A DNA stretch of 64,000 nt from Faecalibacter bovis (GTDB taxonomy: Bacteria; Bacteroidota; Bacteroidia; Flavobacteriales; Weeksellaceae), in contig NZ_CP072842.1 of the NCBI RefSeq assembly GCF_017948305.1, positions 164,001 through 228,000 on the forward strand, given 5' to 3'. The translations under genes and the position numbers were made by a program. Below the pieces are notes generated by a model. That model was not told the origin of the DNA. It did not search any database and saw only the letters and a list, made by a program, of their open reading frames with translations. Of this stretch, positions 13,024-26,183 are shown in pieces; positions within the stretch are counted from its first letter, which is position 1; every line of letters begins with the position of its first letter.

Positions 13024-13077
13024 AAAAAATACTCCTGCTATATCGAAGAGCTTTCTTTTTTTTCCTTTTTTCTTTTA

Positions 13078-13112: not shown

Positions 13113-13163
13113 AATACAACGTCTTTTGAAACGAATCTATTTGCTTTATCCAAAGGTTTAAAT

Positions 13164-13499
13164 GTGGGGAAACCACTTGAAAAACCTTGTCCGAATTGTT
13201 TTGTGATCCATTGTAAAAGCTGGAGACAATACGAAATGTATAAAGCGATTTTATATACTGCATGGAAAGCAAATGCTTTTGATGCTTATCTATTTGGATC
13301 CGTTATTCCATATATCCGAATCAGCGATTTTAAAAAAGTAGTATATGAAAAAGCACATAAAGTATATTGTAGTTACCGCCAATTTGAGAATGATTTTCAG
13401 CGTTATCTAGAATTGGAGAAATACGAAACTTCAATCGCTAAGCAATTGCAACTCATTCGAGAATTGAAACAGGTGTATATTATGCGAAACATCAAGTAA
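13164..13499 (+). pseudogene. DUF6943-like small protein gene, 5'-truncated copy
   Basis: The coding sequence matches the complete copy at 24661-25080 from NLFALSKGLN onward. The first roughly 22 codons have been replaced by a REP-like hairpin (13078-13112) and unrelated DNA. The surviving part is nearly identical in DNA to the other copy up to about 13400, then drifts by synonymous and a few amino-acid changes. A GTG at 13164 could still start a 111-residue product. A CPNC pair and many aromatic residues are visible; no function is known to me. The DUF6943 name is from memory and unverified. A terminator follows at 13503-13531. Confidence 0.6.
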
Positions 13500-13502
13500 C
13501 AG

Positions 13503-13531
13503 AAAAGGCCCTTCCAACGAAGAGCCTTTTT
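13503..13531 (+). terminator. Terminator after truncated DUF6943-like gene
   Basis: AAAAGGC and GCCTTTT form the stem, with CTTC/GAAG pairing inside the loop, followed by T-rich DNA. The same terminator follows the complete copy at 25086-25112. Confidence 0.75.
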
Positions 13532-13605
13532 CTATTTCTCCAAAATCAAAAATAGCCTCTAATTCGTCAGCGTTAAGAAAATCATTTTCATAAAAACACG
13601 GCATA

Positions 13606-13720
13606 ACGATTAGCAGACGAGTTTCAATCCATTGAGTGAATCGCAAAAATGTTTACCGACTGAAAGGAGTGATTTAAACATTTTAGTGAAACGAAATGAT
13701 GATTGACCGTCGAAAATCGT
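13606..13720. repeat. Nested-hairpin element HE1
   Basis: The outer stem is ACGATT (13606-13611) with AATCGT (13715-13720). Inside it, GTCAAT-like and ATTGAC arms lie near CAGACGA and CCGTCG. The inner stem is AAATGTTTA (13647-13655) with TAAACATTT (13675-13683), around the core CCGACTGAAAGGAGTGATT. Five related copies are in the window; see HE2-HE6. HE1 is followed directly by a CTTGAC...GTCAAG hairpin and a 100-nt repeat. No coding potential is seen. Confidence 0.75.
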
Positions 13721-13820
13721 AGCCTTGACTTTTTTATTTCGTTTTTGTGTCAAGACAAATCCGAAGGATTCATGAATACATTATTCATAAAATAATAAAT
13801 CCATGAATAAAAATGAACAT
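13721..13820. repeat. 100-nt repeat R, copy 1
   Basis: It begins with AGCCTTGAC, forms CTTGAC/GTCAAG across 13724-13754 with a T-rich GGTTCG-like loop, and ends in CATGAATA-rich DNA (TCATGAATACATTATTCAT and CCATGAATAAAAATG). Near-identical copies are at 14458-14552, 23535-23634 and 25341-25440, each right after an HE element or its trace. Confidence 0.8.
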
Positions 13821-13832
13821 ATAGAAATGAAT

Positions 13833-13858
13833 AAAGGTTCCTCCATTGAAGAACCTTT
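13833..13858 (-). terminator. Terminator of the 75-aa/46-aa membrane gene pair, copy A
   Basis: Read on the minus strand, AAAGGTTC and GAACCTTT pair around a 10-nt loop just after the 46-aa gene. It is identical in copy B at 25453-25478. Confidence 0.75.
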
Positions 13859-13862
13859 ACTT

Positions 13863-14003
13863 TTATTTATCAAATTTCTTTAAAATATACGAAACCACGA
13901 AACTCACAAATGCACCTACACCAGCTAAAACCGCAGTTTGTACTAAATCATTTATGCCTAAGTTCCCCGCAATACTAAATAGTGTACCCCAAAGTGTACC
14001 CAT
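13863..14003 (-). CDS. 46-aa small membrane protein, copy A
   Basis: A short gene starting at ATG 14003. The product has one clear hydrophobic segment, VQTAVLAGVGAFVSFVVSYI, followed by a basic tail LKKFDK. The second copy (25483-25623) has the same length and differs mainly by conservative changes and silent codon changes, which indicates a real, selected gene. It begins about 10 bp after the stop of the 75-aa gene and ends before a terminator, so the two form a small operon. A holin-like or other membrane role is possible; nothing in the sequence proves it. Confidence 0.75.
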   Translation of the reverse strand: MGTLWGTLFSIAGNLGINDLVQTAVLAGVGAFVSFVVSYILKKFDK

Positions 14004-14013
14004 TTTCAATTGA

Positions 14014-14241
14014 CTATCCTGAATCATGTGTATTGACACCATCTACAACGGTCAATTGGCTGACAGAACTTAGTATTCCACCTGCAACAGTTAAGTATCC
14101 GCCAAGATCATTTAACCAACTTGGTAAATCTACTGGAGAGGCTAAAAGCACTCCACCAATTGCAGCTAATACCAAACCAATATTTCGGAGCAATTGAAAC
14201 AACTTAGGCGTCGGGGATTGAATTCGATCAACTATTTTCAT
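14014..14241 (-). CDS. 75-aa small membrane protein, copy A
   Basis: The product starts MKIVDRIQSPTPKLFQLLRN, followed by two hydrophobic stretches: IGLVLAAIGGVLLASP and, after a loop with WLNDLGG, YLTVAGGILSSVSQLTVV. This is a hairpin-like two-helix membrane protein. The copy at 25634-25861 differs at about a dozen residues but keeps length and topology. A 46-aa membrane gene follows at once. Such pairs recur beside DUF5675 and the 251-aa protein family in Bacteroidota mobile DNA (from memory). The plus-strand reading of this DNA is a shadow frame. Confidence 0.75.
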   Translation of the reverse strand: MKIVDRIQSPTPKLFQLLRNIGLVLAAIGGVLLASPVDLPSWLNDLGGYLTVAGGILSSVSQLTVVDGVNTHDSG

Positions 14242-14286
14242 CCGATACTTTTTTTAAATTAAACATTACTAAAAAGCACCGGCCTT

Positions 14287-14399
14287 AAAACGATACCGTT
14301 AAGAAAATGAAAAGTGAGTAGGATTAGAATAAATTAGTGACTGAAAGGAATCATTTAATTTATTCCCGAAACACGATTCATTTTTAGGTAAATCGTTTT
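14287..14399. repeat. Nested-hairpin element HE2
   Basis: Three nested stems: AAAACGAT (14287-14294) with ATCGTTTT (14392-14399); AAAATG (14304-14309) with CATTTT (14379-14384); GAATAAATTA (14327-14336) with TAATTTATTC (14356-14365). The loop GTGACTGAAAGGAATCATT matches the core of HE1. Every stem differs in sequence from HE1 yet pairs perfectly. A CCTTGAT/ATCAAGG hairpin follows at 14404-14436. Confidence 0.78.
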
Positions 14400-14403
14400 A
14401 TAG

Positions 14404-14436
14404 CCTTGATTTTTTTGGTTCGTTTTTTCATCAAGG
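14404..14436. repeat. GGTTCG-loop hairpin with changed stem
   Basis: CCTTGAT and ATCAAGG pair around a T-rich loop containing GGTTCG. In repeat R the same position reads CTTGAC/GTCAAG, so one base pair has changed on both sides (T-A for C-G). Confidence 0.7.
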
Positions 14437-14457
14437 AAAAAAGAACATCTAAATCGT

Positions 14458-14552
14458 AGCCTTGACTTTTTTGTTTCGTTTTTGTGTCAAGACAAATCCG
14501 AAGGATTCATGAATACATTATTCATAAAATAATAAATCCATGAATAAAAATG
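14458..14552. repeat. 100-nt repeat R, copy 2
   Basis: It is almost identical to 13721-13820 and ends at TGAATAAAAATGAA, 55 bp before the start of the DnaD-like gene. It may mark the right boundary of copy A. Confidence 0.8.
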
Positions 14553-14606
14553 AAAATTAATCTTAATACATATTACTTTTTTACATCATACATTAATACA
14601 CACAAA

Positions 14607-15377
14607 ATGAACTACATCAAACATTTATCATTCTTCTTTCAAAAAGTACAAAGTGATCCAGATATATCACCAAGCCAAATCTCTATTTATTTAGCATTAT
14701 TCAATACATGGAACAGGCATCAATTCTCTAATCCAATAGTAGTCATTCGTGATGAAATCATGCGTTTAAGTAAGATCATGTCTAAAAGCACGTATCATCG
14801 CTCCATGAAGATTTTACATGATAATGGATATATCATTTACGAACCTTCGTACAATCCATTTTTAGGGAGTAAAGTGTATCTCATTGATTTTACAAAATCA
14901 GCACAATTCTCAAAACGTAGGAGTTCAAAAAATAATCAAGTCAATAACACAGATATAAAACAGAGCAGTACACAAAATGATACGGCTTTAGATACAGCGA
15001 ATGATAAAGGGAACGAGCCTTTTATAAAACATATAAACAATAAAACAATAAACAATAATAATTGTTTATCTAAACCTAACGATAAAAGTGATCAACAGTC
15101 TGAAATAAAATCAAGTGAAAAATCTAATATTCCAACATTGGATGAAGCAAAAGAATATTTTCAAGAAAAAGGAAAGCCAATGCTTGATGCTGAAAAATTC
15201 TTTTATTATTTCGAGTCGGTTGGCTGGCTAGTAGGGGGAAAGACCAAAATGAAAAATTGGAAAGCAGCTGCAAACAATTGGATGATTAATGCTTCACAAT
15301 ACACACATTATTCACGATTTACAGCACAAAAACCATTAGATACATCCATCAACAAACGATACGACGAACCTTTATAA
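14607..15377 (+). CDS. DnaD-like/replication-associated protein of a mobile element
   Basis: From ATG 14607 the product starts MNYIKHLSFFFQKV and has 256 residues. The first 110 form a winged-helix-like domain (SPSQISIYLALFNTWNRH, DEIMRLSKIMSKSTYHRSM, LHDNGYI) as in initiator/primosome proteins of Bacteroidota integrative elements. A polar linker rich in N, K and S (about 115-190) leads to a C-terminal DnaD-like segment (DEAKEYFQEKG...MKNWKAAANNWM). I reject the upstream ATG at 14550 because its 19 residues look non-coding. The ATPase gene begins 12 bp downstream, so the pair probably loads a helicase for element replication (inference). Confidence 0.75.
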   Translation: MNYIKHLSFFFQKVQSDPDISPSQISIYLALFNTWNRHQFSNPIVVIRDEIMRLSKIMSKSTYHRSMKILHDNGYIIYEPSYNPFLGSKVYLIDFTKSAQFSKRRSSKNNQVNNTDIKQSSTQNDTALDTANDKGNEPFIKHINNKTINNNNCLSKPNDKSDQQSEIKSSEKSNIPTLDEAKEYFQEKGKPMLDAEKFFYYFESVGWLVGGKTKMKNWKAAANNWMINASQYTHYSRFTAQKPLDTSINKRYDEPL

Positions 15378-15389
15378 CCAAATTGTAAT

Positions 15390-15998
15390 GTGATGATTAA
15401 TTATCAAAAGCTATTATTTCATTTAGAACAACAAGGAAGAAAATACATTCATCCAGGATATACTTTTCATAAAGAAGATTTTCCGTTTATTGTACGTTTA
15501 GCTGCTTATTTCTTGCATGATGAAGAGAAATGTCAAGAGCTACAAATGGATTTAAGTAAAGGGATTTTATTAACTGGTCCAATCGGAATGGGAAAAACAA
15601 CTTGGTTCCGGTTAATGCAAACCATTATGGCCAAAGAACAAAAGTTTTATTACACCACTTGCAGAGATGTTTCTTTTGAGTTTATCAGAGATGGTTATAA
15701 CACCATTAGCAAATACAGCAAAGGAATCCCTTTCGATTTTCCAATGAAAAACATTTGCTTTGATGATCTTGGTACAGAAAACAACATCAAATATTTCGGT
15801 AACGAATGCAATGTAATGGCTGAGGTCATCCTTAGCCGTTACGATTTATTTATTGATCTTAAAATTAAAACCCACATCACAACCAACCTATCAGCATCCG
15901 AGATCGAAAAATATTATACCGAACGTGTCCGATCTCGTCTCCGTCAAATGATGAATGTTATTTCTATTCCACCAGATAGGAAAGATAAAAGAGTATAG
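15390..15998 (+). CDS. DnaC/IstB-like AAA+ ATPase (helicase-loader type)
   Basis: A 202-residue AAA+ protein. Walker A GPIGMGKTT lies near 64-72, Walker B ICFDDLG near 126-132, the sensor region THITTNLSASEIEKYY near 169-184, and an arginine-finger-like RVRSRLRQM near 187-195. Length and motifs fit DnaC-type loaders and IstB-like ATPases. It follows the DnaD-like gene by 12 bp. No transposase is nearby, so a replication role for the mobile element is more likely than IS21 transposition. Confidence 0.8.
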   Translation: MMINYQKLLFHLEQQGRKYIHPGYTFHKEDFPFIVRLAAYFLHDEEKCQELQMDLSKGILLTGPIGMGKTTWFRLMQTIMAKEQKFYYTTCRDVSFEFIRDGYNTISKYSKGIPFDFPMKNICFDDLGTENNIKYFGNECNVMAEVILSRYDLFIDLKIKTHITTNLSASEIEKYYTERVRSRLRQMMNVISIPPDRKDKRV

Positions 15999-16086
15999 GA
16001 ACGATTTGTTATAATTAATCTATAAATAATTCTGATTAGCAAGAAGTTACTATATGTTAGTATTTAGAAAAAAACATACATATATC

Positions 16087-16178
16087 AAAAAAAAAGATGC
16101 TGTAATAACAGCACCTTTTAACCTACTTCTACATAGATTTATAAATCCTAACTAACTAATTTATTGCACCTATAAAAG
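16087..16178 (-). ncRNA. Candidate small RNA A
   Basis: On the minus strand a TATCTTTG box (16184-16191) matches the Bacteroidota -7 consensus. About 90 nt downstream, GGTGCTGT/ACAGCATC (16096-16115) followed by a run of A on the plus strand forms a good minus-strand terminator. No reading frame is seen between them. The RNA would contain TTAGTTAGTTAGG. It could instead be the leader of a lost gene. Confidence 0.35.
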
Positions 16179-16286
16179 TGCTACAAAGATAAGTATTAGG
16201 TTTGTTTTATATAACATTCATTACTAAAAATATAAATGATTTTAATCAGATATTTACAGTGTGTTGAGAAATTTTATTTTAGTTTA

Positions 16287-16316
16287 AAAAATACCGCTCT
16301 ACTGAGCGGTATTTTT
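16287..16316 (-). terminator. Terminator of the fibrinogen-like surface gene
   Basis: ATACCGCTC and GAGCGGTAT pair around TACT, with A/T runs on both sides. It lies 40 bp past the stop of the 525-aa gene. The same hairpin plus about 60 bp of flank recurs at 19714-19803. Confidence 0.75.
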
Positions 16317-16355
16317 ATGGTTTAATTTTACTATAGTTATATGAAAGTTATAGTC

Positions 16356-17933
16356 TTATTTAATCCATACTTGGTGTAGTGTATGATAATTCCATCCATT
16401 AGTATCTTTAAAGTAATTATCCACTTCCCATCGACCATCGGTTCCCATATTCCAACACTCTTTTCCGGAATTATAAAATGTATGAGAAAGTATAGTATTA
16501 GAGTAAGAATTAGCTGACTGTGGTAACAATCCATTATGATTAATAAATTGTATATGGTTAGTTTTTATACCCTCATATGATAAAGTTTTATCGTATATAA
16601 ATGCTTTAACTATATTAATGTTACGAGATTTAAAATGTATAACACGGCTATGTTGATTTGTACTACCGAATATTCTTAATTCAGTTTCATTTTCAACTAT
16701 AGGATAATATTGTAAAAGCTCTTTTGATGTTTGCCCCCATGCTTCTGTATTAGATTCATCATATCCATGTGTGCTATTTTTTAAAATAGGAAAAGAATCA
16801 TTTCTTAATTTTTTTACAGGGTTTGTACCACCTAAATGATTATAATTTAAAACTAATGTCCAACCTCCATTATCTATCATATTATTTTTAGTAGCTTTTG
16901 GTTCCATATCACAATATGCTTGTAAAGCTGGTACATTTAATTTATTACCATCTAAATCAATCGTATAAACTCCTGATAATGAGTTAGGATATAAATTTTT
17001 AATTTCTTTACAGTGATAAGGATATCTACCTACTGCAAAATAACATCCGGCAAAATTACCAAATACTGCAGGTGTGAAATCTAGACCGGTGTAGGTACCA
17101 GTTATTGTATATCTTAAAATTCCATTTAAAGAACCAGATACAACTTCTCTTGTAAGAGTTAATCCATCTTTAGTGATATTTAATTCTTCAAAAGAGTAAC
17201 CTTCTGAATTAGGAATAGGAACTGTATATATTAAATTGTATGTTTTACCATTTTTTAAAAGTCCATCATCTTCTAACGGTAAATCTGTTACCCATGTTCC
17301 ATTGTTACAATCTGCTATATATTCAATCTCTTGTTCATCTTCGTGAGATAGAATAATTTTATTCCAAATCCCTGTAAGCTTAGTGTAGGGTGCATTAAGC
17401 GTACCGCTTAATTTATAAACAATGGTACGGCTACTTCCTGCAGGTATAGTGATGTCGATAGATTCTTGTGGGTCAGTAGTACTTTTACCTTCGCTAGGAA
17501 TACTTAGCATGGTTACGGTAATATCGCTTTGATCAATTTCTAAATCAGTAAGATTAAATCCTAATGTAGCTTCTCTAAAAGTATTATTGGTAATAGTTAC
17601 CTCGTATGTAGCATCAGTTAGTTGTTGTCCACGTATGTATGTCCCCTTAAAACCAGGTCCATCTACACGTACAACTGGATCTTCTTGTTTGGCACCAAAA
17701 CAATCAGACCAACCACTTAGTTGATATCCTTTGAAGCAATGCTCTATATAATCATATACGATCATACCAAGATAAGGGTTTGTAATTTTTGCAAAATCAT
17801 CTACATGATTAAGGATTAAAGTTTTGTTTTTAGAAGCCAAATGTAAATCTGCTTCATGATGTGGGTTTTCTGTATTTACCCCAATCTGCGCAAATAGCAT
17901 AAATGGGAGAAATAATAATAAGAATCTAAACAT
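16356..17933 (-). CDS. Secreted surface protein with fibrinogen-like C-terminal domain
   Basis: A 525-residue secreted protein. Residues 1-16 form a signal peptide (MFRFLLLFLPFMLFA). Residues about 17-70 match the 'QIGVNTENP...LHL' leader of its paralogues. About 85-205 is a beta-rich module (GPGFKGTYIRG, TIVYKLSG) shared with both downstream paralogues. The last 220 residues resemble a fibrinogen/collagen C-terminal domain: C-K-E-I with YPNSLSGVYTIDLDG, then AYCDM and GGWTLVLNYNH. Such domains bind sugars or proteins in animals; in bacteria they are rare. It is the last of three tandem paralogues read leftwards, probably as one unit with a terminator at 16287-16316. A cell-surface adhesin is inferred. 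Confidence 0.75.
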   Translation of the reverse strand: MFRFLLLFLPFMLFAQIGVNTENPHHEADLHLASKNKTLILNHVDDFAKITNPYLGMIVYDYIEHCFKGYQLSGWSDCFGAKQEDPVVRVDGPGFKGTYIRGQQLTDATYEVTITNNTFREATLGFNLTDLEIDQSDITVTMLSIPSEGKSTTDPQESIDITIPAGSSRTIVYKLSGTLNAPYTKLTGIWNKIILSHEDEQEIEYIADCNNGTWVTDLPLEDDGLLKNGKTYNLIYTVPIPNSEGYSFEELNITKDGLTLTREVVSGSLNGILRYTITGTYTGLDFTPAVFGNFAGCYFAVGRYPYHCKEIKNLYPNSLSGVYTIDLDGNKLNVPALQAYCDMEPKATKNNMIDNGGWTLVLNYNHLGGTNPVKKLRNDSFPILKNSTHGYDESNTEAWGQTSKELLQYYPIVENETELRIFGSTNQHSRVIHFKSRNINIVKAFIYDKTLSYEGIKTNHIQFINHNGLLPQSANSYSNTILSHTFYNSGKECWNMGTDGRWEVDNYFKDTNGWNYHTLHQVWIK

Positions 17934-17959
17934 TTTATTTATTTATTGCGGTTAGTAAT

Positions 17960-18571
17960 TTAATTTGTAGTTATTTCTTGAGTATCATTATAGGATAATG
18001 TTATTTTTTTCCATATTCCAACAAGTGTAGTATGTGGTGGTTTCAATTCACCTGTTAATCGATAAACTATGGTTTTAGAACCTTTGGAAGGGAAATTAAC
18101 ATCTATTGTAGAAGTATTAGTTGTACTACTGCCAGATTGATAAACAGCTGTAACATTTACATCCTCTAAATTTGGTTGTAGGTCTTCTACGCCAAAACCT
18201 AAAATAGCAGGTTTAGATGAATTGTTGGTTAATGTGACTTCAAATGTGGCATTGGTTAATGTTGTTCCACTAGTATATGTTCCTTTAAAGCCTATTCCTT
18301 TTAATCCAAAGGATAGGTTAGATACATTATTACTGAAACATGTAGACCAACCGTCTTGTTGATATCCTCTTACACAACCAGAAGTAGAATCATAGGCAAT
18401 CATTCCTAATTGTGGATCTGTAATCGCATTTAAATCTGTTAAATGATTTACAATCATGGTTTTATTTAAGCCGCCTAAGTGTAAATCGGATTCGGGATGC
18501 GGATTTTCTGTATTTACCCCAATTTGTGCAAAGAGCATAAAAGGGAGTAACAAGAATAGAAATCTATACAT
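17960..18571 (-). CDS. Secreted surface protein, short paralogue (203 aa)
   Basis: It has a signal peptide (MYRFLFLLLPFMLFA) and then the QIGVNTENP leader and beta module, aligning with residues 1-205 of the 525-aa neighbour and stopping where the fibrinogen-like part would begin. It is either a complete single-module protein or a shortened copy; the stop falls cleanly at the module edge, which favours the former. The leader segment AACTAACTCTCA precedes the ATG. No catalytic residues are seen. Confidence 0.7.
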   Translation of the reverse strand: MYRFLFLLLPFMLFAQIGVNTENPHPESDLHLGGLNKTMIVNHLTDLNAITDPQLGMIAYDSTSGCVRGYQQDGWSTCFSNNVSNLSFGLKGIGFKGTYTSGTTLTNATFEVTLTNNSSKPAILGFGVEDLQPNLEDVNVTAVYQSGSSTTNTSTIDVNFPSKGSKTIVYRLTGELKPPHTTLVGIWKKITLSYNDTQEITTN

Positions 18572-18622
18572 TGAGAGTTAGTTTTTAAAATTAATAGTTA
18601 TAATTAAATAATTTTTCTTGAT

Positions 18623-19135
18623 TTATTGTGCGATAATCGCTTGACTGTCATGATAGGTAAAAAAGAATTTTTTCCAAATCCCTTTTATAGCGTTCTGATC
18701 AGTGTTTAAATCACCAGACAGTTGGTAAACAATAGTTTTAGTGGAATAGGGTGCAAATGTTAGGTCAATAGATGTAGTGGTAGAGTTTTGCATACCAGCC
18801 TCATAAACAGCAGTAACATGTACATCTTCAATATTCAACTGCAAATCTTTAGTATCAAATTTCCATACAATAGGCTGTTTAGCAGTATTAGTTAACCTAA
18901 CTTCAAAGGTGTTGTCAGTTAACGCATTTCCTGTAACATAAGAACCTTTAAAACCAAGTCCTACAAATCCAAAAGCCCAATGGTAATAATTGGCATTGCC
19001 CTGCATACAAGTAGGATTTTCTTCCATTGCAGTTTTACCTGTATGCCAACATAAATTAGTTGTAAAATACGTTTTACCCTTACCTATACCTGAAAAAACA
19101 AGTACGGGTAGTAATAAGAAAATGATATGTCTCAT
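18623..19135 (-). CDS. Secreted surface protein, divergent short paralogue (170 aa)
   Basis: Signal peptide MRHIIFLLLPVLVFSG. The C-terminal 120 residues carry the same beta module as the two genes after it (GLGFKGSYVTGNAL, TKTIVYQLSGDL, GIWKKFFFTYHDSQAI). The QIGVNTENP segment is replaced by KGKTYFTTNLCWHTGK. It is first of three tandem paralogues, so a promoter for the cluster probably lies in 19136-19300. The leader contains ACTAACTAAC. The function is unknown; it is exported and probably surface-located. Confidence 0.65.
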   Translation of the reverse strand: MRHIIFLLLPVLVFSGIGKGKTYFTTNLCWHTGKTAMEENPTCMQGNANYYHWAFGFVGLGFKGSYVTGNALTDNTFEVRLTNTAKQPIVWKFDTKDLQLNIEDVHVTAVYEAGMQNSTTTSIDLTFAPYSTKTIVYQLSGDLNTDQNAIKGIWKKFFFTYHDSQAIIAQ

Positions 19136-19713
19136 TTTTTTGTTAGTTAGTATTATTGTTAGTTGTAATGAATATTTATATTAAGATCGGATTACATTAA
19201 AGATTCAATAGGAAATTTTATTGTTATTCAGATTATTAAAGCAAGCTTCAACAGAGCTGAATAATTTTAGTTTTAGTTTATTGCACAAAATTAGAAAACA
19301 ATTCTAAATTGATTATTAAGCGATTAAAAATATTTAGATGATTTAAATCATTGATTATAAATATTTTATAATGAGTAAAAATTACCGAAAATTTTCAAAA
19401 ATCATCAAAAAACTATTTTATATCTCAAATTTTATTTTATGTACCTATTTAATAAATAATGAAGTAAATTATCAAATAATTAAGTTAATAGTTTAATTAT
19501 CATGAATTTAAATTTCATAAAATACAGAAATAGATTATGCTGTTTTTGGCTGTTTTTAAGAAAAATAATTGATATTATAACATAACGGATGAACTGTTAA
19601 ATTATTAATCTGTGAGTATATAATCTTTTATAAAACCAACTTACATATAAATGAGCGTTAGTTTTAGAATTATAAACTTCTATGTAAATTAAAATCGACT
19701 AATTTCTATAAAA

Positions 19714-19808
19714 AAAAATACCGCTCTACTGAGCGGTATTTTAATGGTCTAATTTTACTATAGTTATATGAAAGTTATAGTCTTATCGTACCCATACTTG
19801 GTGATAAT
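19714..19808 (-). pseudogene. 3'-end scrap of a fourth fibrinogen-like paralogue
   Basis: On the minus strand the last codons read YYHQVWVR and stop (19779-19805), matching LHQVWIK at the end of the 525-aa gene. The following 60-70 bp and the ATACCGCTC/GAGCGGTAT terminator (19714-19743) are nearly identical to 16287-16355. Only the tail of the gene survives. Confidence 0.7.
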
Positions 19809-19816
19809 ACAAAAAA

Positions 19817-19838
19817 ATACCGCTCCTAAGAGCGGTAT
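19817..19838 (-). terminator. Orphan terminator hairpin
   Basis: ATACCGCTC and GAGCGGTAT pair around CTAA, followed on the minus strand by seven T. It differs in loop and flanks from the 19714 hairpin. The roughly 85 nt upstream on the minus strand lack an ORF, so a small RNA similar to candidate A is possible but weak. Confidence 0.55.
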
Positions 19839-20167
19839 GTGGTTGGTATAGTTAGCTAAATACTAGTTTGAGTTAGTTATTATATAATCGAAACTAAAAT
19901 TTTTAAAAGTATAAAGTTACATTTTACCTATATTTTTATAATGAAGGTATAAATTATATAATTTTCATTTTGTAGTATACACAAACAAATTCAATTAAAA
20001 TGGAAATTAATATGATACTAATAACCGCTAAAATTTAATAATATATCTAATTAATAATCATTTAACTTTAGAATACTTTTATAAAGTATAGGATAATTCA
20101 ATTGTAAATAATAAATTTACAGAGTAATTATTGATTGCTAAAAGATTGTATGCTAAACGATTTGAAT

Positions 20168-20273
20168 AAAAGGTGCTGCGCCAACAGCACCTTTTATTTG
20201 CCTCTACAATCTTTAAATGAATGCTTTGTATAACCAACTTAAACCTAAAATTGTTGCTTTAAGATGTAAAAGC
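20168..20273 (-). ncRNA. Candidate small RNA B with terminator
   Basis: A symmetric terminator, AAAAGGTGCTG/CAGCACCTTTT, occupies 20168-20195. On the minus strand a TACCTTCG box (20278-20285) resembles the -7 consensus. The intervening 80 nt hold no ORF and include AGGTTTAAGTTGGTTAT, which can pair with the ATAACCAACCTAAATCT leader of the pseudogene at 35011 with one mismatch and one G-U. Low confidence; the terminator itself is convincing. Confidence 0.35.
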
Positions 20274-20894
20274 GGTGCGAAGGTATAAAAAAAATCAATT
20301 TTTGATAAAAAACAGAGTTATTTTTTAACTGATTTAAATCAGTTAAGGTGCTGATATGTTGTATTTTATAATGAGTAAAAATTTGATTTATTAAGTAATT
20401 TTTATTCATTAAAAAATAGGTTTAAAATGTTTTTTTATTGATAATTAAATTGGAATTGTCAAAAAAAGATATAAAAACAATAATAGTTATTGTGTAAACA
20501 ATAGGATTTATATTTACATAATATGCTATTATATTTTAAAAGTTAGCTGTCAATCAACTTTCTAAGATAAGTATTTAAAGATATTTAATCTTTGACTTAA
20601 GAATCAAACAAATATTCATACACCCTCCACTTAATGATAATATCTCGAAATGTAGACTTTAACATTTTTATATTTTAAAGAATGATATACAAATAGAGTG
20701 ATCAGTTCTAATATTACTTTCATTAAAATTTCACACCTCAATCATTTATTGATAAAGTTTGTTATCGTGAATTATCCAAAATAGACATGCTTAATTAATT
20801 TAATAGTAGTTAATTAACAACCTGTTGATAACCTTTTTAAAAATCATATAATAATAGTATAGTAGAAATAAGGGAAAACATAGATTTGTAAAAT

Positions 20895-21734
20895 ATGGAG
20901 AATACGATAGTTGTTAAAATTGGAGGTGATCTAACTACAAATTTTGTAGGAATCAATGAATTATTTAAATTTTATAATGAAGCGAAAGATTATTTCGACT
21001 GTATAATATCTATCGATTTCTATCATCTAAGATGGTTTGATGCGAATTTAAGCGCCATATTTGGAGCGATGATTCAATTATTAATAGATAATAATAATCT
21101 AAAGTTTACTACAGATTTAGCATTTCTAGAAAATAGATTTGATGTACTCTTTCGTAATGGATTTTTAAATTCAGAGAATTATAAATCGGACGAAAGAAAT
21201 TCAACAATCGCTTTCCAAAATTTTGATCAGAAAGATAAAGAGGGTTTCAATCATTATATAGAAAATAATTTGATGCAACATAGAGGTATGCCAAATTTAT
21301 CTGATGAACAGAGTGATTGTATACTAGATGCATTAAATGAAATTTTTTGTAATATTCAACTTCATGCTCAAACCGAAAACGATTTCTTTGTGTGTGGTCA
21401 ATACTACCCTAGACAATCTAAACTTATTTTTACGATGGTAGATTTAGGGATAGGTTTTCTTCCCGCAATCGCTGAAAAAACAAAGAATGAAGTACAGTCA
21501 AACTATCAAGCAATCAAATGGGCATTAGAAAAAAGAAATACAACTAAAAAAAATACACCAGGAGGGCTTGGTTTATATGATTTAAATAATTATTTTAGTT
21601 CAAGTAATGGAGATTTTCAAATTATAACAGGTGATACATTTTGGAGTAAAAATCTTGAAAATTCTCCTTTGAAAAAACAGATTTTTAATAAACCATTCAT
21701 AGGTACAATAGTAAATTTGGTATTTGAAATTTAG
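20895..21734 (+). CDS. STAS-like domain fused to GHKL ATPase (anti-sigma-kinase-like)
   Basis: A 279-residue protein. Residues 1-95 resemble a STAS-like alpha/beta domain (VVKIGGDL, FDCIISIDF, WFDANLSAIFGAMI). Residues about 130-279 are a GHKL ATP-binding fold: N-box DALNEIFCNIQLHA (145-158, with E149 and N153), G1 DLGIGF (183-188) and G2 PGGLGL (222-227). No histidine-phosphorylation domain is present, so it resembles RsbT/RsbW-type switch kinases rather than sensor kinases. The next genes encode a STAS-like partner and a PIN protein. Inference: a partner-switch module controlling the PIN effector. Confidence 0.75.
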   Translation: MENTIVVKIGGDLTTNFVGINELFKFYNEAKDYFDCIISIDFYHLRWFDANLSAIFGAMIQLLIDNNNLKFTTDLAFLENRFDVLFRNGFLNSENYKSDERNSTIAFQNFDQKDKEGFNHYIENNLMQHRGMPNLSDEQSDCILDALNEIFCNIQLHAQTENDFFVCGQYYPRQSKLIFTMVDLGIGFLPAIAEKTKNEVQSNYQAIKWALEKRNTTKKNTPGGLGLYDLNNYFSSSNGDFQIITGDTFWSKNLENSPLKKQIFNKPFIGTIVNLVFEI

Positions 21735-21747
21735 TATTGTACCTTTG
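21717..21747 (+). promoter_or_regulatory. Bacteroidota-type promoter for the STAS-like gene
   Basis: TTG at 21717-21719 and TACCTTTG at 21740-21747 are spaced by 20 bp, matching the TTG-N17-23-TAnnTTTG consensus. The promoter sits over the stop codon of the ATPase gene and would give a roughly 22-nt leader before ATG 21776. The two downstream genes can therefore be expressed apart from the ATPase. Confidence 0.65.
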
Positions 21748-21775
21748 CAAACACAAACCGTTTAAAAGCAAAATT

Positions 21776-22096
21776 ATGAAAATCAATATTTTAGATATTA
21801 TAAATTCTAATTTAGCTACAAATATTGAAGATGGTGTTAATGTTTTTAATGCAATTAAAGAGATTAAGCCAGATTCTTTAATTCTTTCATTTGAAGGAAT
21901 TAAGCGTATTTCTACAGCTTTTTTAAATGAATCAATAGGGCAATATGCTTTAATTTATAACAATTTGAATATTAATAACTTTGTATTTCCAGAAGATAAA
22001 CCAATGTTTAAATTCAAAGTTGAAGATATCATTGAAAACGCTCTTTTAGGAGACCAATACGATGAATTAGTAGATAATATGATTGTTTCTTTATAA
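21776..22096 (+). CDS. STAS-like (DUF4325-type) small protein
   Basis: From ATG 21776 the product has 106 residues. SLILSFEGIKRISTAFLNESIGQ follows the 'beta strand - G - S/T - helix' pattern of DUF4325/STAS-like proteins, where a serine or threonine may be phosphorylated by a GHKL kinase; here S and T in RISTAF are candidates. The GTA start region at 21737 is rejected: the extra residues cover the promoter. It stands between the ATPase and the PIN gene, 18 bp before the latter. Inference: antagonist or phospho-switch partner of the upstream ATPase. Confidence 0.7.
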   Translation: MKINILDIINSNLATNIEDGVNVFNAIKEIKPDSLILSFEGIKRISTAFLNESIGQYALIYNNLNINNFVFPEDKPMFKFKVEDIIENALLGDQYDELVDNMIVSL

Positions 22097-22114
22097 AAAA
22101 AGAAAAGGTTAATT

Positions 22115-22720
22115 ATGCCTTATAAATATTCAAAAACACAAAATGCACGTCCAAAAGATGGTGCATTTTATTTTTTAGATGCTAACATTTGGATTAAAAT
22201 TCTAACTCCTAAATCTAAACCTTCTTTCAAGGACAAAAATTACATCACATTTGTAGAGAAAATTCAAGATAATAGTAAGTGTAAAATTGTTGTTACCGCA
22301 TTAGTATTATCAGAAGTAATTAATCGTATTCTCAGAGATGTACATATGGAAAAGTTTTTATTAAAAATGAAAAGACAAGATCCAAATTACATTCCTCCTA
22401 AAGATTTTTATAAAGCTGTATTTAGAAAATCGTCCGATTTTAAAAGAGCATATGTGATGTTATGTGATGAAATCAGAGATATGCATGATACTTTATATTT
22501 AGTGTCAGATGAATTAGGAGAAAAATTCAAATTAAAACATATACTTAAAGATTTACCAACTCATTTAGATTTTAATGATCATTACTATTACCAGATCTGT
22601 AAAGCAAATAATTATATATTAATTACAGATGATAAAGATTTTTGGGTAGAGGATGTAGAGGTTATGACAGAAAGCGATACATTATTTAATAGATTCTTAC
22701 AAGTAAATATTCCTAAATAA
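22115..22720 (+). CDS. PIN-domain RNase-like protein
   Basis: A 201-residue protein with PIN-fold acidic residues: D22 and N24 in FLDANIWI, E67 in LVLSEVIN, the D152-D155 region in LDFNDHYYY, and T171-D175 in ITDDKDFW. PIN proteins are metal-dependent RNases, often toxins. There is no VapB-like antitoxin; instead a STAS-like protein and a STAS/GHKL ATPase precede it, 18 bp and about 400 bp upstream. A clear terminator ends the unit at 22746. This arrangement suggests an effector held in check by protein partners (inference). Confidence 0.75.
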   Translation: MPYKYSKTQNARPKDGAFYFLDANIWIKILTPKSKPSFKDKNYITFVEKIQDNSKCKIVVTALVLSEVINRILRDVHMEKFLLKMKRQDPNYIPPKDFYKAVFRKSSDFKRAYVMLCDEIRDMHDTLYLVSDELGEKFKLKHILKDLPTHLDFNDHYYYQICKANNYILITDDKDFWVEDVEVMTESDTLFNRFLQVNIPK

Positions 22721-22745
22721 TGTAGTTTTTTTAAATAGATAAAAT

Positions 22746-22779
22746 AAAAATGTGAGATTTTTCAATAATCTCACATTTT
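22746..22779 (+). terminator. Terminator of the STAS/PIN cluster
   Basis: AAAATGTGAGATT and AATCTCACATTTT form a long stem with a short loop, then T. It ends the cluster and marks the left limit of the structured locus copy B. Confidence 0.85.
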
Positions 22780-22995
22780 TTACTTTATTATAACCTCATC
22801 CGCCAACCCTTTCTAAAAAATCCATCCAGTTCCATTCGAACAGCAATTCAATATCTCTCACTCGTTTCGGAAGTAAAATCCATCCAACAGCGTATATACA
22901 CCGGAATGTTAGACGCTATTGGATTGAAATCACGGCACTTTCCGATGGTCTGATTCCTTCCATTTTCCGAAAGTCCTTGATGATGGATTTTTGGA

Positions 22996-23027
22996 GATTG
23001 TTGAAGTTTTAAATTATCGCTACAATC
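22996..23027. repeat. Hairpin with conserved loop, copy B
   Basis: GATTGTTG and CTACAATC (one T-T mismatch) enclose AAGTTTTAAATTATCG. Compare 12266-12295: same loop, different stem. Confidence 0.7.
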
Positions 23028-23040
23028 ATTTTATTGCAAC

Positions 23041-23075
23041 TTTGAGATTAAGAGGAGAAGCTTGAGAAGCTTCGG
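23041..23075. repeat. GGAG-foot hairpin repeat, copy 2
   Basis: TTTGAGATTAAGAGGAG is followed by GAAGCTT-GAG-AAGCTTC-GG. It is the standard form of the repeat. Confidence 0.75.
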
Positions 23076-23418
23076 GTTTAAAAACTCCAATAATGTGCAA
23101 CTTCAATTTCATTCAGTAACAATCATTCTAACCTATAAAAATGGCTAGGTTTTGAGTAAGAAATATAAAAACCTATTCATTTTAAACTTGATTCGAAAAT
23201 TACTATTCAAACCAAAAGTTGCACACCATTGGGCAAAAACAGCCCTAGCATTCGTTGCTCTTTACTGTTTTTCACAAAGCAGAAAAACAAAAGCAACCAA
23301 TGCTGATAAAGGGCTTTCGTTAGGTGCAAAAAATGTTTGATTAGCGATAAGAATCCACCATGAAAACATAATCTTTCATAAGAAGAAAAACTCTTAAATA
23401 AAGATAAAAATGGCCTCT

Positions 23419-23532
23419 AAATCGTCATCGTTAAGAAAATCATTTTTTATGAAGGACAAGTATGAATTACCGACCATCGGGAGCGATTTAATTCATTCCC
23501 GAAATGAAAAGGATTTTTAGCCAAGACGATTT
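23419..23532. repeat. Nested-hairpin element HE3
   Basis: Outer stem AAATCGTC (23419-23426) with GACGATTT (23525-23532); middle AAAATCATTTT (23436-23446) with AAAAGGATTTT (23507-23517), one mismatch; inner ATGAATTA (23462-23469) with TAATTCAT (23489-23496). The core loop is CCGACCATCGGGAGCGATT. It shares loops with HE2 (CGTTAAG on the left, CCCGAAA on the right) but all three stems differ. Repeat R copy 3 follows. Confidence 0.8.
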
Positions 23533-23534
23533 AA

Positions 23535-23634
23535 AGCCTTGACTTTTTTGGTTCGTTTTTGTGTCAAGACAAATCCGAAGGATTCATGAATACATTATTC
23601 ATAAAATAATAAATCCATGAATAAAAATGAACAT
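23535..23634. repeat. 100-nt repeat R, copy 3
   Basis: It is almost identical to 13721-13820 and 25341-25440; the CTTGAC/GTCAAG hairpin is at 23538-23568. Confidence 0.8.
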
Positions 23635-23829
23635 ATACAAACTATACCTAAGCTACACTGAAGCTTCTCCTTTTAATTTCAAATGTTCTACACAAAAATG
23701 CTTGATTCGGGATAAAAATCCACCATGAAAACTTAATCTTTCATAACAAAAAAAACTTTTATATAAAGAAAAACCGGCCTCCAAATCGTCAGCGTTAAGA
23801 AAAACATTTCAGAAACAAAAACGGCATAA

Positions 23830-23942
23830 CAATTCGCAGACGAGCGTCAATCCATTGAGAGTAACGTAAAAATGTTTACCGACTGAAAGGAGTGATTTAA
23901 ACATTTTAGTGTAACGAAATGATGATTGACCGTCGAGAATTG
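23830..23942. repeat. Nested-hairpin element HE4
   Basis: Outer stem CAATTC (23830-23835) with GAATTG (23937-23942); inner AAATGTTTA (23870-23878) with TAAACATTT (23898-23906). The inner part matches HE1, but the outer stem has changed on both sides (HE1 has ACGATT/AATCGT). A CTTGAT/ATCAAG hairpin with GGTTCG loop follows. Confidence 0.78.
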
Positions 23943-24249
23943 AAGCCTTGATTTTTTTTTGGTTCGTTTTTTTGATCAAGCAAAAAAATGAACATAGAAA
24001 TACAATATCTAAGTTTCATTGAAGCTTCTACTCTTAAACCACATTTCCCCACCACCCCATTAATAGCTACAGGTCAAGAAAAGCAAAAGTTTTATAAAAG
24101 GTACATTGGTCTATTACGCTAAATCGCTAGTCGCATCACATCGTTCGGTACTCCATTGCAAGCCTGTGCTGAGCCCAGTCGAAGTGCAATTCGTAACCCC
24201 TCACTTTTGTGCTGCTTGGTAGCTTATTAGCCCACACCAATTGGCTCGG

Positions 24250-24284
24250 TGTAGCAAAACACCCTAAAGGGATGTTCAGCTACA
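24250..24284. repeat. Covarying hairpin, copy B
   Basis: TGTAGC pairs with GCTACA, and AACA-CCC with GGG-TGTT inside. Compare 12717-12750. Confidence 0.7.
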
Positions 24285-24484
24285 ATCCCTCGCCACCTAT
24301 TTAAATAGTAGATAACTTTTCTTTCCCTGCGCGTATTTCCCCGATTTTAAAAACCTGAATCTTAACACAGCCCACTTTTGAATTGAAACATTTAATTTCA
24401 AACAAAAATCCTGATTGAAGAAAATTTTGAAAAAAAAATTCCAACAAAAAGAAACGCAAAGGTCTATCCGATTCATTTTTAGTC

Positions 24485-24557
24485 AAGGTCAAGCCTTGCA
24501 GGTTTACATCAAAATCTCCACCTATACAGGTTGTATTTGGATGTAAAACCTTGCCTT
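24485..24557. repeat. Three-tier hairpin upstream of DUF6943-like gene, copy B
   Basis: It has the same nested stems as 12951-13023, with one base difference visible. The DUF6943-like gene starts about 100 bp downstream. Confidence 0.65.
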
Positions 24558-24660
24558 TAAAATGCCTCTGATAAGGAGAAATGGCTTTCTTTTTTTTTGT
24601 TTTTTCTTTGGAAGAATATTCTGCGAAGCGTAGCGAGCATAAATTTTTAAATGCCTAGCT

Positions 24661-25080
24661 ATGAATTTACCAGAAATTAAACACTTTTCAGCCAAAGCGA
24701 AAATTCAACCAAATGATCTATTTGCATTGTCCAAAGGTTTAAATGTGGGGAAACCACTTGAAAAACCTTGTCCGAATTGTTTTGTGATCCATTGTAAAAG
24801 CTGGAGACAATACGAAATGTATAAAGCGATTTTATATACTGCATGGAAAGCAAATGCTTTTGATGCTTATCTATTTGGATCCGTTATTCCATATATCCGA
24901 ATCAGCGATTTTAAAAAAGTAGTATATGAAAAAGCACATAAAGTATATTGTAGTTACCGCCAATTTGAGAATGATTTTCAACGCTATCTCGAATTGGAGA
25001 AATATGAAGAATCAATCGCTAAACAACTTCAACTCATCCGAGAACTGAAACAGGTGTACATCATGCGACACATTAAGTAA
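24661..25080 (+). CDS. DUF6943-like small protein, complete copy
   Basis: A 139-residue protein starting MNLPEIKHFSAKAK. Residues 33-60 include KPCPNCFVIHCKSW, a CxxC...C pattern that may bind metal; the remainder is aromatic and basic, ending in a helical tail with QLQLIRELKQVYIM. The truncated twin at 13164-13499 shares about 270 bp of identical DNA, so the copies recombined or duplicated recently even though the surrounding non-coding DNA is only about 75-80% alike. A terminator follows at once. The DUF6943 name is from memory. It recurs in mobile DNA of Bacteroidota; function unknown. Confidence 0.7.
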   Translation: MNLPEIKHFSAKAKIQPNDLFALSKGLNVGKPLEKPCPNCFVIHCKSWRQYEMYKAILYTAWKANAFDAYLFGSVIPYIRISDFKKVVYEKAHKVYCSYRQFENDFQRYLELEKYEESIAKQLQLIRELKQVYIMRHIK

Positions 25081-25085
25081 AAACT

Positions 25086-25112
25086 AAAGGCCCTTCAAAC
25101 GAAGAGCCTTTT
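25086..25112 (+). terminator. Terminator after DUF6943-like gene
   Basis: AAAGGC pairs with GCCTTT, with CTTC/GAAG inside the loop, then T. It matches the terminator at 13503-13531. Confidence 0.75.
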
Positions 25113-25188
25113 TCTATTTCTCCAAAATCAAAAATAGCCTCTAATTCGTCTGCGTTAAGAAAATCATTTTCATAAAAAAACGGCATAA

Positions 25189-25339
25189 CAATTCGCAGAC
25201 GAGTGTCAATCCATTGAGAGTAACGTAAATATGTTTACTGACCGAAGATTTGAGATTAAGAGGAGAAATCATGAGATGATTTCGGTTTAAAATTTAAACA
25301 TTTTAGTGAAACGAAATGATGATTGACCGTCGAGAATTG
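25189..25339. repeat. Nested-hairpin element HE5, interrupted by a GGAG-foot hairpin
   Basis: Outer stem CAATTC (25189-25194) with GAATTG (25334-25339); ATGTTTA and TAAACAT remain as inner arms. The usual core loop is replaced or interrupted by GGAG-foot hairpin copy 3 (25249-25285), making this element about 35 nt longer than the others. This shows the two repeat families can nest. Confidence 0.75.
25249..25285. repeat. GGAG-foot hairpin repeat, copy 3 (changed stem)
   Basis: It has the same TTTGAGATTAAGAGGA lead and GAG loop, but the stem is GAAATCAT/ATGATTTC instead of GAAGCTT/AAGCTTC. All changed bases are compensated. Confidence 0.78.
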
Positions 25340-25340
25340 A

Positions 25341-25440
25341 AGCCTTGACTTTTTTGGTTCGTTTTTGTGTCAAGACAAATCCGAAGGATTCATGAATACA
25401 TTATTCATAAAATAATAAATCCATGAATAAAAATGAACAT
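25341..25440. repeat. 100-nt repeat R, copy 4
   Basis: It is near-identical to the other three copies and immediately follows HE5. Confidence 0.8.
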
Positions 25441-25452
25441 ATAGAAATGAAT

Positions 25453-25478
25453 AAAGGTTCCTCCATTGAAGAACCTTT
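25453..25478 (-). terminator. Terminator of the 75-aa/46-aa membrane gene pair, copy B
   Basis: AAAGGTTC/GAACCTTT hairpin on the minus strand, identical to 13833-13858. Confidence 0.75.
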
Positions 25479-25482
25479 ACTT

Positions 25483-25623
25483 TTATTTATCTAATTTCTT
25501 TAAAATGTAAGAAACCACGAAACTCACAAAAGCACCAACTCCAGCAAGAATAGCAGTTTGTAACAAATCACTTAAACCTAAATTCCCAATGATACTAAAT
25601 ATTGTACCACAGAGAACCCCCAT
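25483..25623 (-). CDS. 46-aa small membrane protein, copy B
   Basis: Starts at ATG 25623 with MGVLCGTIFSIIGNLG, then one membrane segment (LLQTAILAGVGAFVSFVVSY) and a basic tail ILKKLDK. It has the same length as copy A, with mostly conservative or silent changes, so both are under selection. It is coupled to the 75-aa gene just upstream. Confidence 0.75.
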   Translation of the reverse strand: MGVLCGTIFSIIGNLGLSDLLQTAILAGVGAFVSFVVSYILKKLDK

Positions 25624-25633
25624 TTTCATTTGA

Positions 25634-25861
25634 CTATCCTGTATCATCTTTATTCACGCCATCTACAACCGTCAATTGGCTAACTGCACCCAAAACACCA
25701 CCTGCAACCGTTAAATATCCACCGAGATCATTTAACCATTCCGGCAATGCTACTGGAGAAGCTAAAAGCACTCCACCAACAGCAGCTAAAACCAAACCGA
25801 TATTTCGGAGCCATTGAAACAACTTAGGCGTTGGGGATTGTAATCGATCAATTATTTTCAT
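25634..25861 (-). CDS. 75-aa small membrane protein, copy B
   Basis: Two hydrophobic helices (IGLVLAAVGGVLLASP and YLTVAGGVLGAVSQLTVV) are joined by a short loop with EWLNDLGG. It is paralogous to 14014-14241. It is read in the same direction as the DUF5675 and 251-aa genes upstream (26184-27340), from which it is separated by HE6 and a GGAG-foot hairpin. A membrane role in the same mobile module is inferred. Confidence 0.75.
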   Translation of the reverse strand: MKIIDRLQSPTPKLFQWLRNIGLVLAAVGGVLLASPVALPEWLNDLGGYLTVAGGVLGAVSQLTVVDGVNKDDTG

Positions 25862-25938
25862 CCGTTAAATCATCCGTTTTTAATTACACAATTTTTTAAA
25901 AATGGCATTAAAAGCCTTACATAAATCAACCCGACATA

Positions 25939-26053
25939 GCGATTAGCAGACGAGTGTCAATCCATTGAGTGAATCGCAAAAATGTTTACCGACTGAAAGG
26001 AGTGATTTAAACATTTTAGAGAAACGAAATGATGATTGACCGTCGAAAATCGT
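25939..26053. repeat. Nested-hairpin element HE6
   Basis: Outer stem GCGATT (25939-25944) with AATCGT (26048-26053), containing one G-U pair; the inner AAATGTTTA/TAAACATTT and core are as in HE1. A CTTGATTTTTTGATTAC...ATCAA hairpin and GGAG-foot copy 4 follow. Confidence 0.75.
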
Positions 26054-26086
26054 AGTCTTGATTTTTTGATTACTTTTTTCATCAAA

Positions 26087-26121
26087 TTTGAGATTAAGAG
26101 GAGAAGCTTGAGAAGCTTCGG
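26087..26121. repeat. GGAG-foot hairpin repeat, copy 4
   Basis: TTTGAGATTAAGAGGAG followed by GAAGCTT-GAG-AAGCTTC-GG, 60 bp from the 3' end of the DUF5675 gene. Confidence 0.75.
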
Positions 26122-26183
26122 TAAGTGTCATTCTGAATTCATTTCAGAATCACATCAAGTGAAATATCATTATGTCTTAAGTC

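Follow-up and report, generated by a model that had tools for sequence, protein, structure and literature searches.

Covarying jointed hairpins with pseudoknot tails in Faecalibacter bovis and its relatives: a candidate family of non-autonomous mobile repeats

Six hairpin elements, HE1-HE6, stand close together in the window analysed here, a stretch of 64,000 nucleotides covering positions 164001-228000 of the single-contig, 2.84-Mb genome of Faecalibacter bovis (NZ_CP072842.1). We think it reasonably likely that they belong to a hitherto undescribed family of non-autonomous mobile repeats, which are short (about 180-200 bp), non-coding and recognised as a folded single strand. Conservation of the fold, the intergenic multi-copy state, differences in presence between genomes, arrays, and the reassortment of bodies with tails are all observed; a non-autonomous repeat recognised by its folded strand would agree with a structure that persists across families, with the patchy occurrence of the copies and with the exchange of modules. 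The observation from which we started, an initial annotation that reported six elements with complementary but differing stems, is real: direct reading and covariance models both find the elements at the places reported, and the stems quoted there are present and complementary. That description was incomplete, since it missed the pseudoknot tail that follows each body and the existence of two body types, and its interpretation is partly supported.

Two covariance models, R1 for the type B body and R2 for the type A body, were built from related copies; HE1, HE2, HE3, HE4 and HE6 were among the model-building sequences, and HE5 is the sole independent match. In the window, HE1, HE4, HE5 and HE6 are of type A, and HE2 and HE3 are of type B. 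The parts are as follows, S and T being two smaller repeats described below.

13555-13597, plus strand: 5' half of a type B body directly upstream of HE1, forming a chimeric junction (nhmmer)
13600-13729, plus strand: HE1, type A body, a GGC...GCC hairpin with apex CCGA-CTGAAAG-GAGTGATT (R2 146.3 bits, R1 42.2 bits)
13724-13818, plus strand: HE1 pseudoknot tail, CTTGAC/GTCAAG loop; the 3' arm of its stem carries, from 13759, a T insert of about 52 nt
14281-14410, plus strand: HE2, type B body (R1 133.8 bits)
14405-14446, plus strand: HE2 pseudoknot tail, CTTGAT/ATCAAG (sequence reading)
14451-14555, plus strand: the 3' part of a type A body, left as a remnant at 14451-14461 (AAATCGTAGCC), and a second complete tail with T insert
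23412-23543, plus strand: HE3, type B body (R1 124.1 bits)
23538-23632, plus strand: HE3 tail with T insert from 23573
23776-23818, plus strand: 5' half of a type B body preceding HE4 (nhmmer type B profile)
23823-23952, plus strand: HE4, type A body (R2 145.1 bits)
23947-23993, plus strand: HE4 pseudoknot tail, CTTGAT/ATCAAG
25137-25178, plus strand: 5' half of a type B body preceding HE5 (nhmmer type B profile)
25182-25349, plus strand: HE5, type A body, with a separate 37-nt S hairpin in the apex at 25249-25285 (R2 123 bits; S motif at 25249)
25344-25438, plus strand: HE5 tail with T insert from 25379
25933-26062, plus strand: HE6, type A body (R2 148.1 bits)

The type B 5' half thus precedes HE4 and HE5 as it does HE1, where the nhmmer type B profile aligned over 13555-13769 and ran through the type A tail. 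The tail of HE6 is interrupted after ATCAA by an S hairpin (26087-26121), and the tail at 14451-14555 was registered as a tail without a body in the tail scan.

The body is one long jointed hairpin of about 125-130 nt, running from GGC to GCC, its ends being GGC/GCC or GAC/GTC. The outer helix reads ACGATT/AATCGT in type A and AAAACGAT/ATCGTTTT in type B; inward of it lie conserved internal loops, then a middle helix and then an inner helix, which occurs in the variants AAAATGTTTA/TAAACATTTT, GAATAAATTA/TAATTTATTC and ATGAATTA/TAATTCAT. The apex, which the initial annotation had described as a conserved core, is itself a small covarying helix of the form N1 N2 GA, a small stem-loop, and GA N2' Y N1' ATT, with tandem G·A. 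The core stands as a recurrent pattern, found four times in the window with up to three mismatches where 0.05 occurrences are expected, but it is not invariant: its pairs covary, and the apexes of HE2 and HE5 diverge further from the pattern. The apex pattern, with only A or G allowed at N2', fits 107 of 200 distinct bodies, and both N1:N1' and N2:N2' are complementary in 96 of these 107 (CC/G.G 41, GT/A.C 30, GC/G.C 11, CT/A.G 6, the rest fewer); the remaining 93 bodies include other apex types. In seven bodies tandem GA/GA is swapped for AA/TT, and the adjoining pairs still match.

Directly 3' of the GCC comes the tail, consisting of CTTGAY, a run of T and a hairpin, for example GTTCGTTTTTGT-[GTCAAG]-ACAAAAATGAAC, with one T-rich and one A-rich arm. 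The loop of this hairpin is the reverse complement of CTTGAY, which gives an H-type pseudoknot, and the two strands covary (CTTGAT/ATCAAG, CTTGAC/GTCAAG, CTTGAA/TTCAAG, AGCG/CGCT; AGAG/CTCT also occurs). A scan for RTCAAG-loop hairpins, which covered both strands and overlapping loci so that some tails were counted twice, found a matching CTTGAY upstream in 141 cases, the wrong Y in eight and neither in 132. Among 182 distinct tails, 157 have a hairpin scoring at least 7; in these, the loop pairs with the upstream strand over at least four bases in 111 and over at least five in 92, against a mean of 72 and a maximum of 81 in 500 permutations. The 46 tails that pair by fewer than four bases include seven CAAGTC tails and 13 AATGTC tails that belong to a third body type (loop GACG, three pairs). 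A plain tail was recognised by the scan after 116 of 223 bodies; the others, judged from the first 45 listed, mostly carry variant loops or inserts.

Two smaller repeats were noticed next to these parts. S consists of TTTGAGATTAAGAGGAG followed by a short hairpin; its motif has five matches in the window against 0.21 expected, at 13078-13112, 23041-23075, 23667-23683 (minus strand), 25249-25285 and 26087-26121, and in other genomes it stands after tails. T is a third small palindromic insert, ATCCGAAGGATTCATGAATACATTATTC..., of about 52-54 nt, starting in the window at 13759, 14496, 23573 and 25379, in all four cases within the 3' arm of the tail stem; at one orthologous tail, a T-like insert is present in genome G013 and absent from G010 (codes G000-G013 denote the 14 genomes of the genus Empedobacter/Faecalibacter, and L codes denote extracted loci; genus and family labels are those assigned by the genome database).

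That the stems covary was borne out in alignments larger than the six copies. Throughout, covariation cells come from related sequences and do not represent independent events. For type B, 17 of 40 pairs changed on both sides among 15 sequences, with a score of 0.296 against 0.085 in shuffled and at most 0.058 in slid alignments, and 65 cells against 20.9 +/- 3.3 after shuffling, a number reached in none of 500 shuffles. For type A, nine of 35 pairs changed on both sides among 36 sequences (score 0.153 against 0.075 shuffled and at most 0.050 slid; 57 cells against 21.1, reached in 0 of 500 shuffles), and two further measures were weak, the pair count being reached by 26 and the pair types by 243 of 500 shuffles. 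In 118 distinct copies, the number rose to 36 of 40 pairs (score 0.539 against 0.155 shuffled and at most 0.098 slid; 1056 two-sided cells against 310 shuffled; pair types reached by 19 of 500 shuffles), and in 37 distinct copies, all from outside the window's genus and other families included, to 38 of 40 (0.548 against 0.153 shuffled and at most 0.119 slid); both of these alignments were fitted to the covariance model and hence lean to the structure. The fitted alignments A3 and A7 mix body types, and A7 contains overlapping loci and two weak matches on the reverse strand, each set of identical rows being counted once; A1 and A2 are plain MAFFT alignments, and in A1 the outermost pairs are out of register in 15 of the 36 rows.

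The elements are numerous and widespread. All copy numbers given here are lower bounds, with 43 candidates scored per genome in the 79-genome searches, 10 in the family search and eight in the class search. The window's genome holds them at no fewer than 35 distinct places (at least 32 matches to R2 and 30 to R1), G012 has at least 37, G004 too is rich in copies, and none were found in G005 or G007. By DNA similarity, 14 of 60 relatives carry them, namely 12 of the 14 genus genomes and two others by the tail only; an exact pattern scan identified Faecalibacter rhinopitheci, F. macacae, Empedobacter brevis, E. tilapiae, E. falsenii and E. stercoris as carriers. The type A model matched 15 and the type B model 21 of 79 genomes, all in the same family, and neither matched any of 31 genomes from other families of the order. 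Across the family, 148 of 320 genomes, from 11 of its 33 genera, have a type B match, 121 of the 148 carriers belonging to one genus (genomes of 3.1-6.2 Mb), which is probably Chryseobacterium. Class-wide, eight of 395 genomes match, five of them in four other families; in the copies inspected from three of these families the joints are alike (GCGTTAAGAAAAT or GCGTAAAAAATC, with ATTTTTAGC) and the stem letters unrelated, the pseudoknot tail being seen in two of the three. The match at L258 scores 37.4 bits.

At the extracted loci the copies are intergenic, except for two inside mechanically called open reading frames (ORFs). Arrays occur among capsule-type sugar-nucleotide genes (UDP-sugar dehydrogenases, epimerases, a nucleotidyl transferase and a DegT aminotransferase), and copies stand before SusC/SusD genes (L171), in a maltodextrin operon with GH65, cyclomaltodextrinase and GH31 neighbours, and before replication modules of integrative elements, such as a primase-polymerase-like gene at L031 and a DnaC-like ATPase gene at 15390-15998 of the window, both assigned by matches well below curated cut-offs. 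Around sugar-nucleotide and SusC/SusD genes there are arrays and inverted pairs of copies. At L079 (6356-8939), L169 and L078, two diverged element types stand head to head with about 60 bp between them, and this composite unit is repeated four times in L079.

Signs of mobility come from comparisons between genomes. At two orthologous gaps of the maltodextrin operon, compared in 11 genomes, the presence of the element varies by species: in the upstream gap, it is present in G000, G001 (truncated), G004 and G012, represented by the tail only in G010 and G013, and lacking in G002, G003, G007, G009 and G011. Before the same orthologous tail, G004 has a type A body and G000 a type B body. At the corresponding loci L035 and L065 (G001 and G000), the first element has the same body and another tail, and the second has the same tail and another body; bodies and tails reassort at the GCC/TTGA joint. 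The body remnants seen share nearly one breakpoint (AAATCGTAGCC or close to it) and do not have random ends. The elements thus resemble miniature inverted-repeat transposable elements (MITEs) and bcr-type repeats in being multi-copy, non-coding, intergenic, and present or absent at orthologous sites between species. Element halves enclosing a gene, as in an autonomous partner with shared terminal inverted repeats, were not seen among the partial matches to the type B profile, although no systematic search for them was made. We propose that an enzyme would recognise the folded single strand when a copy is moved or duplicated, in which case base pairing and internal loops would be kept while the letters drift; the pseudoknot would mark the 3' end of the element, and the common joint between body and tail would be the place of recombination between copies. 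It is probable that the window's copies spread inside the duplicated mobile-element region that they flank, or along with it. As to whether RNA or single-stranded DNA (ssDNA) is recognised, and on which strand, the evidence is mixed.

The duplicated region spans 12257-14250 and 22988-25860; DUF6943 is found in both copies, DUF5675 stands after the second, and the copies differ by HE3 and HE4 and their flanks.

Several results weigh against a mobile repeat of this kind. The mobilising enzyme was not found among Y1 transposases, reverse transcriptases or integron integrases. The Y1 (REP, repetitive extragenic palindromic) transposase PF01797 is found in six of the 14 genus genomes (G000 weakly, G001, G002, G005, G010 and G013), in the window's genome by a weak match; it is present in the element-free G005 and absent from the element-rich G003, G004, G008, G009 and G012. 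The reverse transcriptase PF00078 is found in four (G002, G005, G007 and G008, the last with many elements) and in none of the other 10, including the window's genome. The integron integrase TIGR02249 scores over the cut-off in none of the 14 genomes; matches below the cut-off occur in 14 of 14, and likewise in 14 of 14 control genomes. The presence and absence comparisons are between species, not strains. Comparison of empty sites gave no clean target-site duplication, the flanks being too diverged or the inserts compound, and at one near-empty paralogous site the overlap was no more than the four bases CCAC and the insert was larger. Plasmids, phages and viral contigs gave no match, one of these searches having used a single exact type A pattern. 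Finally, of 135 copies with two neighbours (mechanically called ORFs), 87 share the orientation of the downstream gene and 48 oppose it, a bias that would fit a regulatory RNA too.

These searches also tell against several candidate origins. An origin from REP elements and REP-associated tyrosine transposases (RAYTs) is rejected, as Y1 transposases do not track the copies; nor was a GTAG-type head on a 20-40 bp palindrome found, the bodies being about 130 bp with GGC/GCC or GAC/GTC ends. A retroelement (group II intron, retron or diversity-generating retroelement), which shared tails and 5'-truncated remnants had suggested, is rejected on the absence of reverse transcriptase from 10 of 14 genomes, including most carriers, and is also countered by the nearly single breakpoint of the remnants; a reverse transcriptase partner may have been lost earlier from carrier genomes. 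An attC site served by an integron integrase is rejected because no integrase exceeds the cut-off, and a phage or plasmid element because there were no matches in those sets. No known RNA family is credible either: at gathering score, Rfam 15 gives only five tRNAs in the window, in keeping with the initial annotation, which knew of no described family with this core. When 13500-26200 was searched to E 10, the matches that reached the elements were all weak: BTnc231, on the minus strand, scores 25 bits at 13501-13599 and 22 bits at 25083-25226 (cut-off 80.4), and ArcZ scores 17 bits at 13700-13781 (cut-off 66). A literature search that lacked most subscription papers and preprints did not find a description of the family. 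Hence neither finding that would have told against the initial annotation, a loss of covariation in larger alignments or a known element accounting for the fold, was obtained.

A structured RNA, a recombination site and a non-autonomous element were the possibilities raised at the outset, and they are the right ones to weigh, together with the possibility that the pairing is a by-product of hairpin self-templated repair by strand switching, in which no selection acts on the fold. We consider this last reading, taken as the main explanation, improbable. To a degree it is real: hairpin-templated mutation contributes to the pairing, because one copy (G000) has a 3' arm that now reads as a 5' arm in reverse complement. 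Also in its favour, one-sided changed cells number 62 against 1056 two-sided in the 118-copy alignment, where wobble changes are rare, and z-scores against dinucleotide shuffles are nearly equal for the two strands (-3.51 against -3.34). Yet templating would erase internal loops and bulges, which are conserved across families; the pairs of the tail are interleaved and covary; and the seven bodies with A-A/T-T for tandem G.A still match at neighbouring pairs. One arm copied from the other therefore leaves the conserved loops and the pseudoknot unexplained, and these argue for selection on the fold. The claim that paired change marks selection on a folded RNA or ssDNA is accordingly borne out in part only: the strong covariation across genera and families, the loops and the pseudoknot support it, and the rarity of wobble, the equal strand z-scores and the templated rewriting weaken it. 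At the downstream site of L196, the arm standing before a tail matches a type B 5' arm in reverse complement, a possible trace of hairpin strand switching.

An unlikely alternative, though less so than the by-product reading, is a cis-acting structured RNA (a leader, or an element of processing or anti-termination) retained where intergenic regions are transcribed and amplified as an aid to the expression of long operons such as SusC/SusD, capsule and replication modules. The orientation bias speaks for it, as do tails that end a few tens of bases from a start codon (for example, L071), the pseudoknot, which is typical of RNA, and an excess of G.U over A.C mismatches (47 against 17, in 38 non-redundant rows) in the type A-fitted alignment. 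However, about one third of the copies oppose the downstream gene, and at L068 every copy opposes the surrounding sugar-nucleotide genes; the type B-fitted alignment lacks the G.U asymmetry (16 against 14), wobble changes are rare, the strand z-scores are equal, and one and the same operon has copies in some species and none in others. A lower minimum free energy of the plus strand in 47 of 47 non-redundant bodies (39 of 47 with DNA parameters) was set aside as a test for RNA on that strand, because the equal shuffle z-scores attribute the difference to base composition. We give similarly little credence as to the by-product reading to an ssDNA recombination site of attC or shufflon type, in which the folded strand would be cut and joined by a tyrosine recombinase and the intervening genes exchanged. 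The retention of structure and not of sequence, as in attC, would agree with it, as would the arrays and inverted pairs around sugar-nucleotide and SusC/SusD genes, the recombination of bodies and tails, and the few wobble pairs. A 288-aa integron-integrase-like tyrosine recombinase with a score under the cut-off is encoded no more than about 3 kb away from copies in G008 (C14), G009 (C67) and G010 (C1, about 1350000), but in G000 and G004 the best-scoring such recombinases lie about 30 kb from the nearest copy among the matches listed; there is no integron integrase over the cut-off in the 14 genomes, no GTTRRRY box at the 3' end, and no exchange of whole gene cassettes was seen.

Known systems differ from the proposed non-autonomous repeats in various respects. 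attC sites act as a folded single strand with kept structure, variable letters and extrahelical bases, stand in arrays, and have the consensus boxes RYYYAAC (5') and GTTRRRY (3'). The elements share with them the kept structure, varying letters and arrays; GCCTAAC even stands at the 5' end of some type A copies, but at the 3' end they have GCC-TTGA and no R' box, and neither an integron integrase over the cut-off nor one-gene cassettes were seen.

The bcr1-bcr18 repeats of the Bacillus cereus group are likewise intergenic, non-coding and present in many copies. According to the available text of two papers, bcr repeats measure 100-400 bp, bcr1-3 are MITE-like and often lie in untranslated regions or operon gaps, and some families keep a secondary structure (PMC6542083, PMC3446304). 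They belong to another phylum, and the TTTAT site is not known for our elements; a covarying pseudoknot tail, reassortment of bodies and tails, and class-wide spread do not appear in the bcr descriptions compared, as far as these extend. Flavo-1 (RF01705) is, in the text available, a structured Bacteroidetes motif (PMC2864571), whose hits in Flavobacterium psychrophilum fall indistinctly sense or antisense of transcribed regions (PMC9723704, likewise in part). It resembles our elements as a structured motif with many copies per genome in Bacteroidetes, but differs in sequence and in fold (76 positions, six copies folded). It gave no match in the window at gathering score, and none to E 10 in eight element-bearing loci and 13500-26200; Flavo-1 numbers at least 89 copies in G005, where none of our elements were found, and four in G012, which has at least 37 of them. 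REPs and bacterial interspersed mosaic elements (BIMEs) are described, in the portions available, as intergenic palindromes that cluster in alternating orientations and change their stems in a complementary manner (PMC2817692), REPs being 20-40 bp long and many having a GTAG-type head (PMC3733652, PMC2817692). The likeness extends to clustering, intergenic position and complementary stem changes; a body here, however, measures about 130 bp, and the copies do not follow the Y1 genes. Thousands of REP-type palindromes in two Flavobacterium genomes, as given in the accessible part of PMC12306157, fall outside the comparison made here.

More tentatively, and with rather low confidence, the elements may represent a new class of Bacteroidia mobile element recognised purely as a folded single strand, in which the body hairpin would bear the identity and the separable pseudoknot tail would be a universal 3' handle. 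The logic of such a class would be comparable to that of short interspersed nuclear elements (SINEs), which share the tail of a partner long interspersed nuclear element (LINE), but in bacteria. Class-wide spread, 36-38 of 40 covarying pairs and a covarying pseudoknot point strongly to a structured element that has gone unrecognised. The family offers a concrete, testable substrate for the mobilising enzyme. Its arrays among sugar-nucleotide and SusC/SusD genes, and its copies within mobile elements, may help to explain rearrangement there; on the tentative reading of a new class, the elements may also be sites of exchange at which capsule, SusC/SusD and replication modules are reshuffled. The covariance models can be used to mask or annotate the family in many genomes (148 of 320 in its own family).

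Elsewhere in the window, a cluster at 20895-22720 comprises three genes, namely an ORF that by eye resembles a GHKL-type ATPase and is without a Pfam match, a DUF4325 STAS-like protein and a PIN-domain protein. The ORF at 27986-29077 has a beginning that by eye resembles an RHS-repeat core, with no Pfam match at 0.001. The five tRNA genes lie on the minus strand at 50304-50754 in a tandemly repeated layout.

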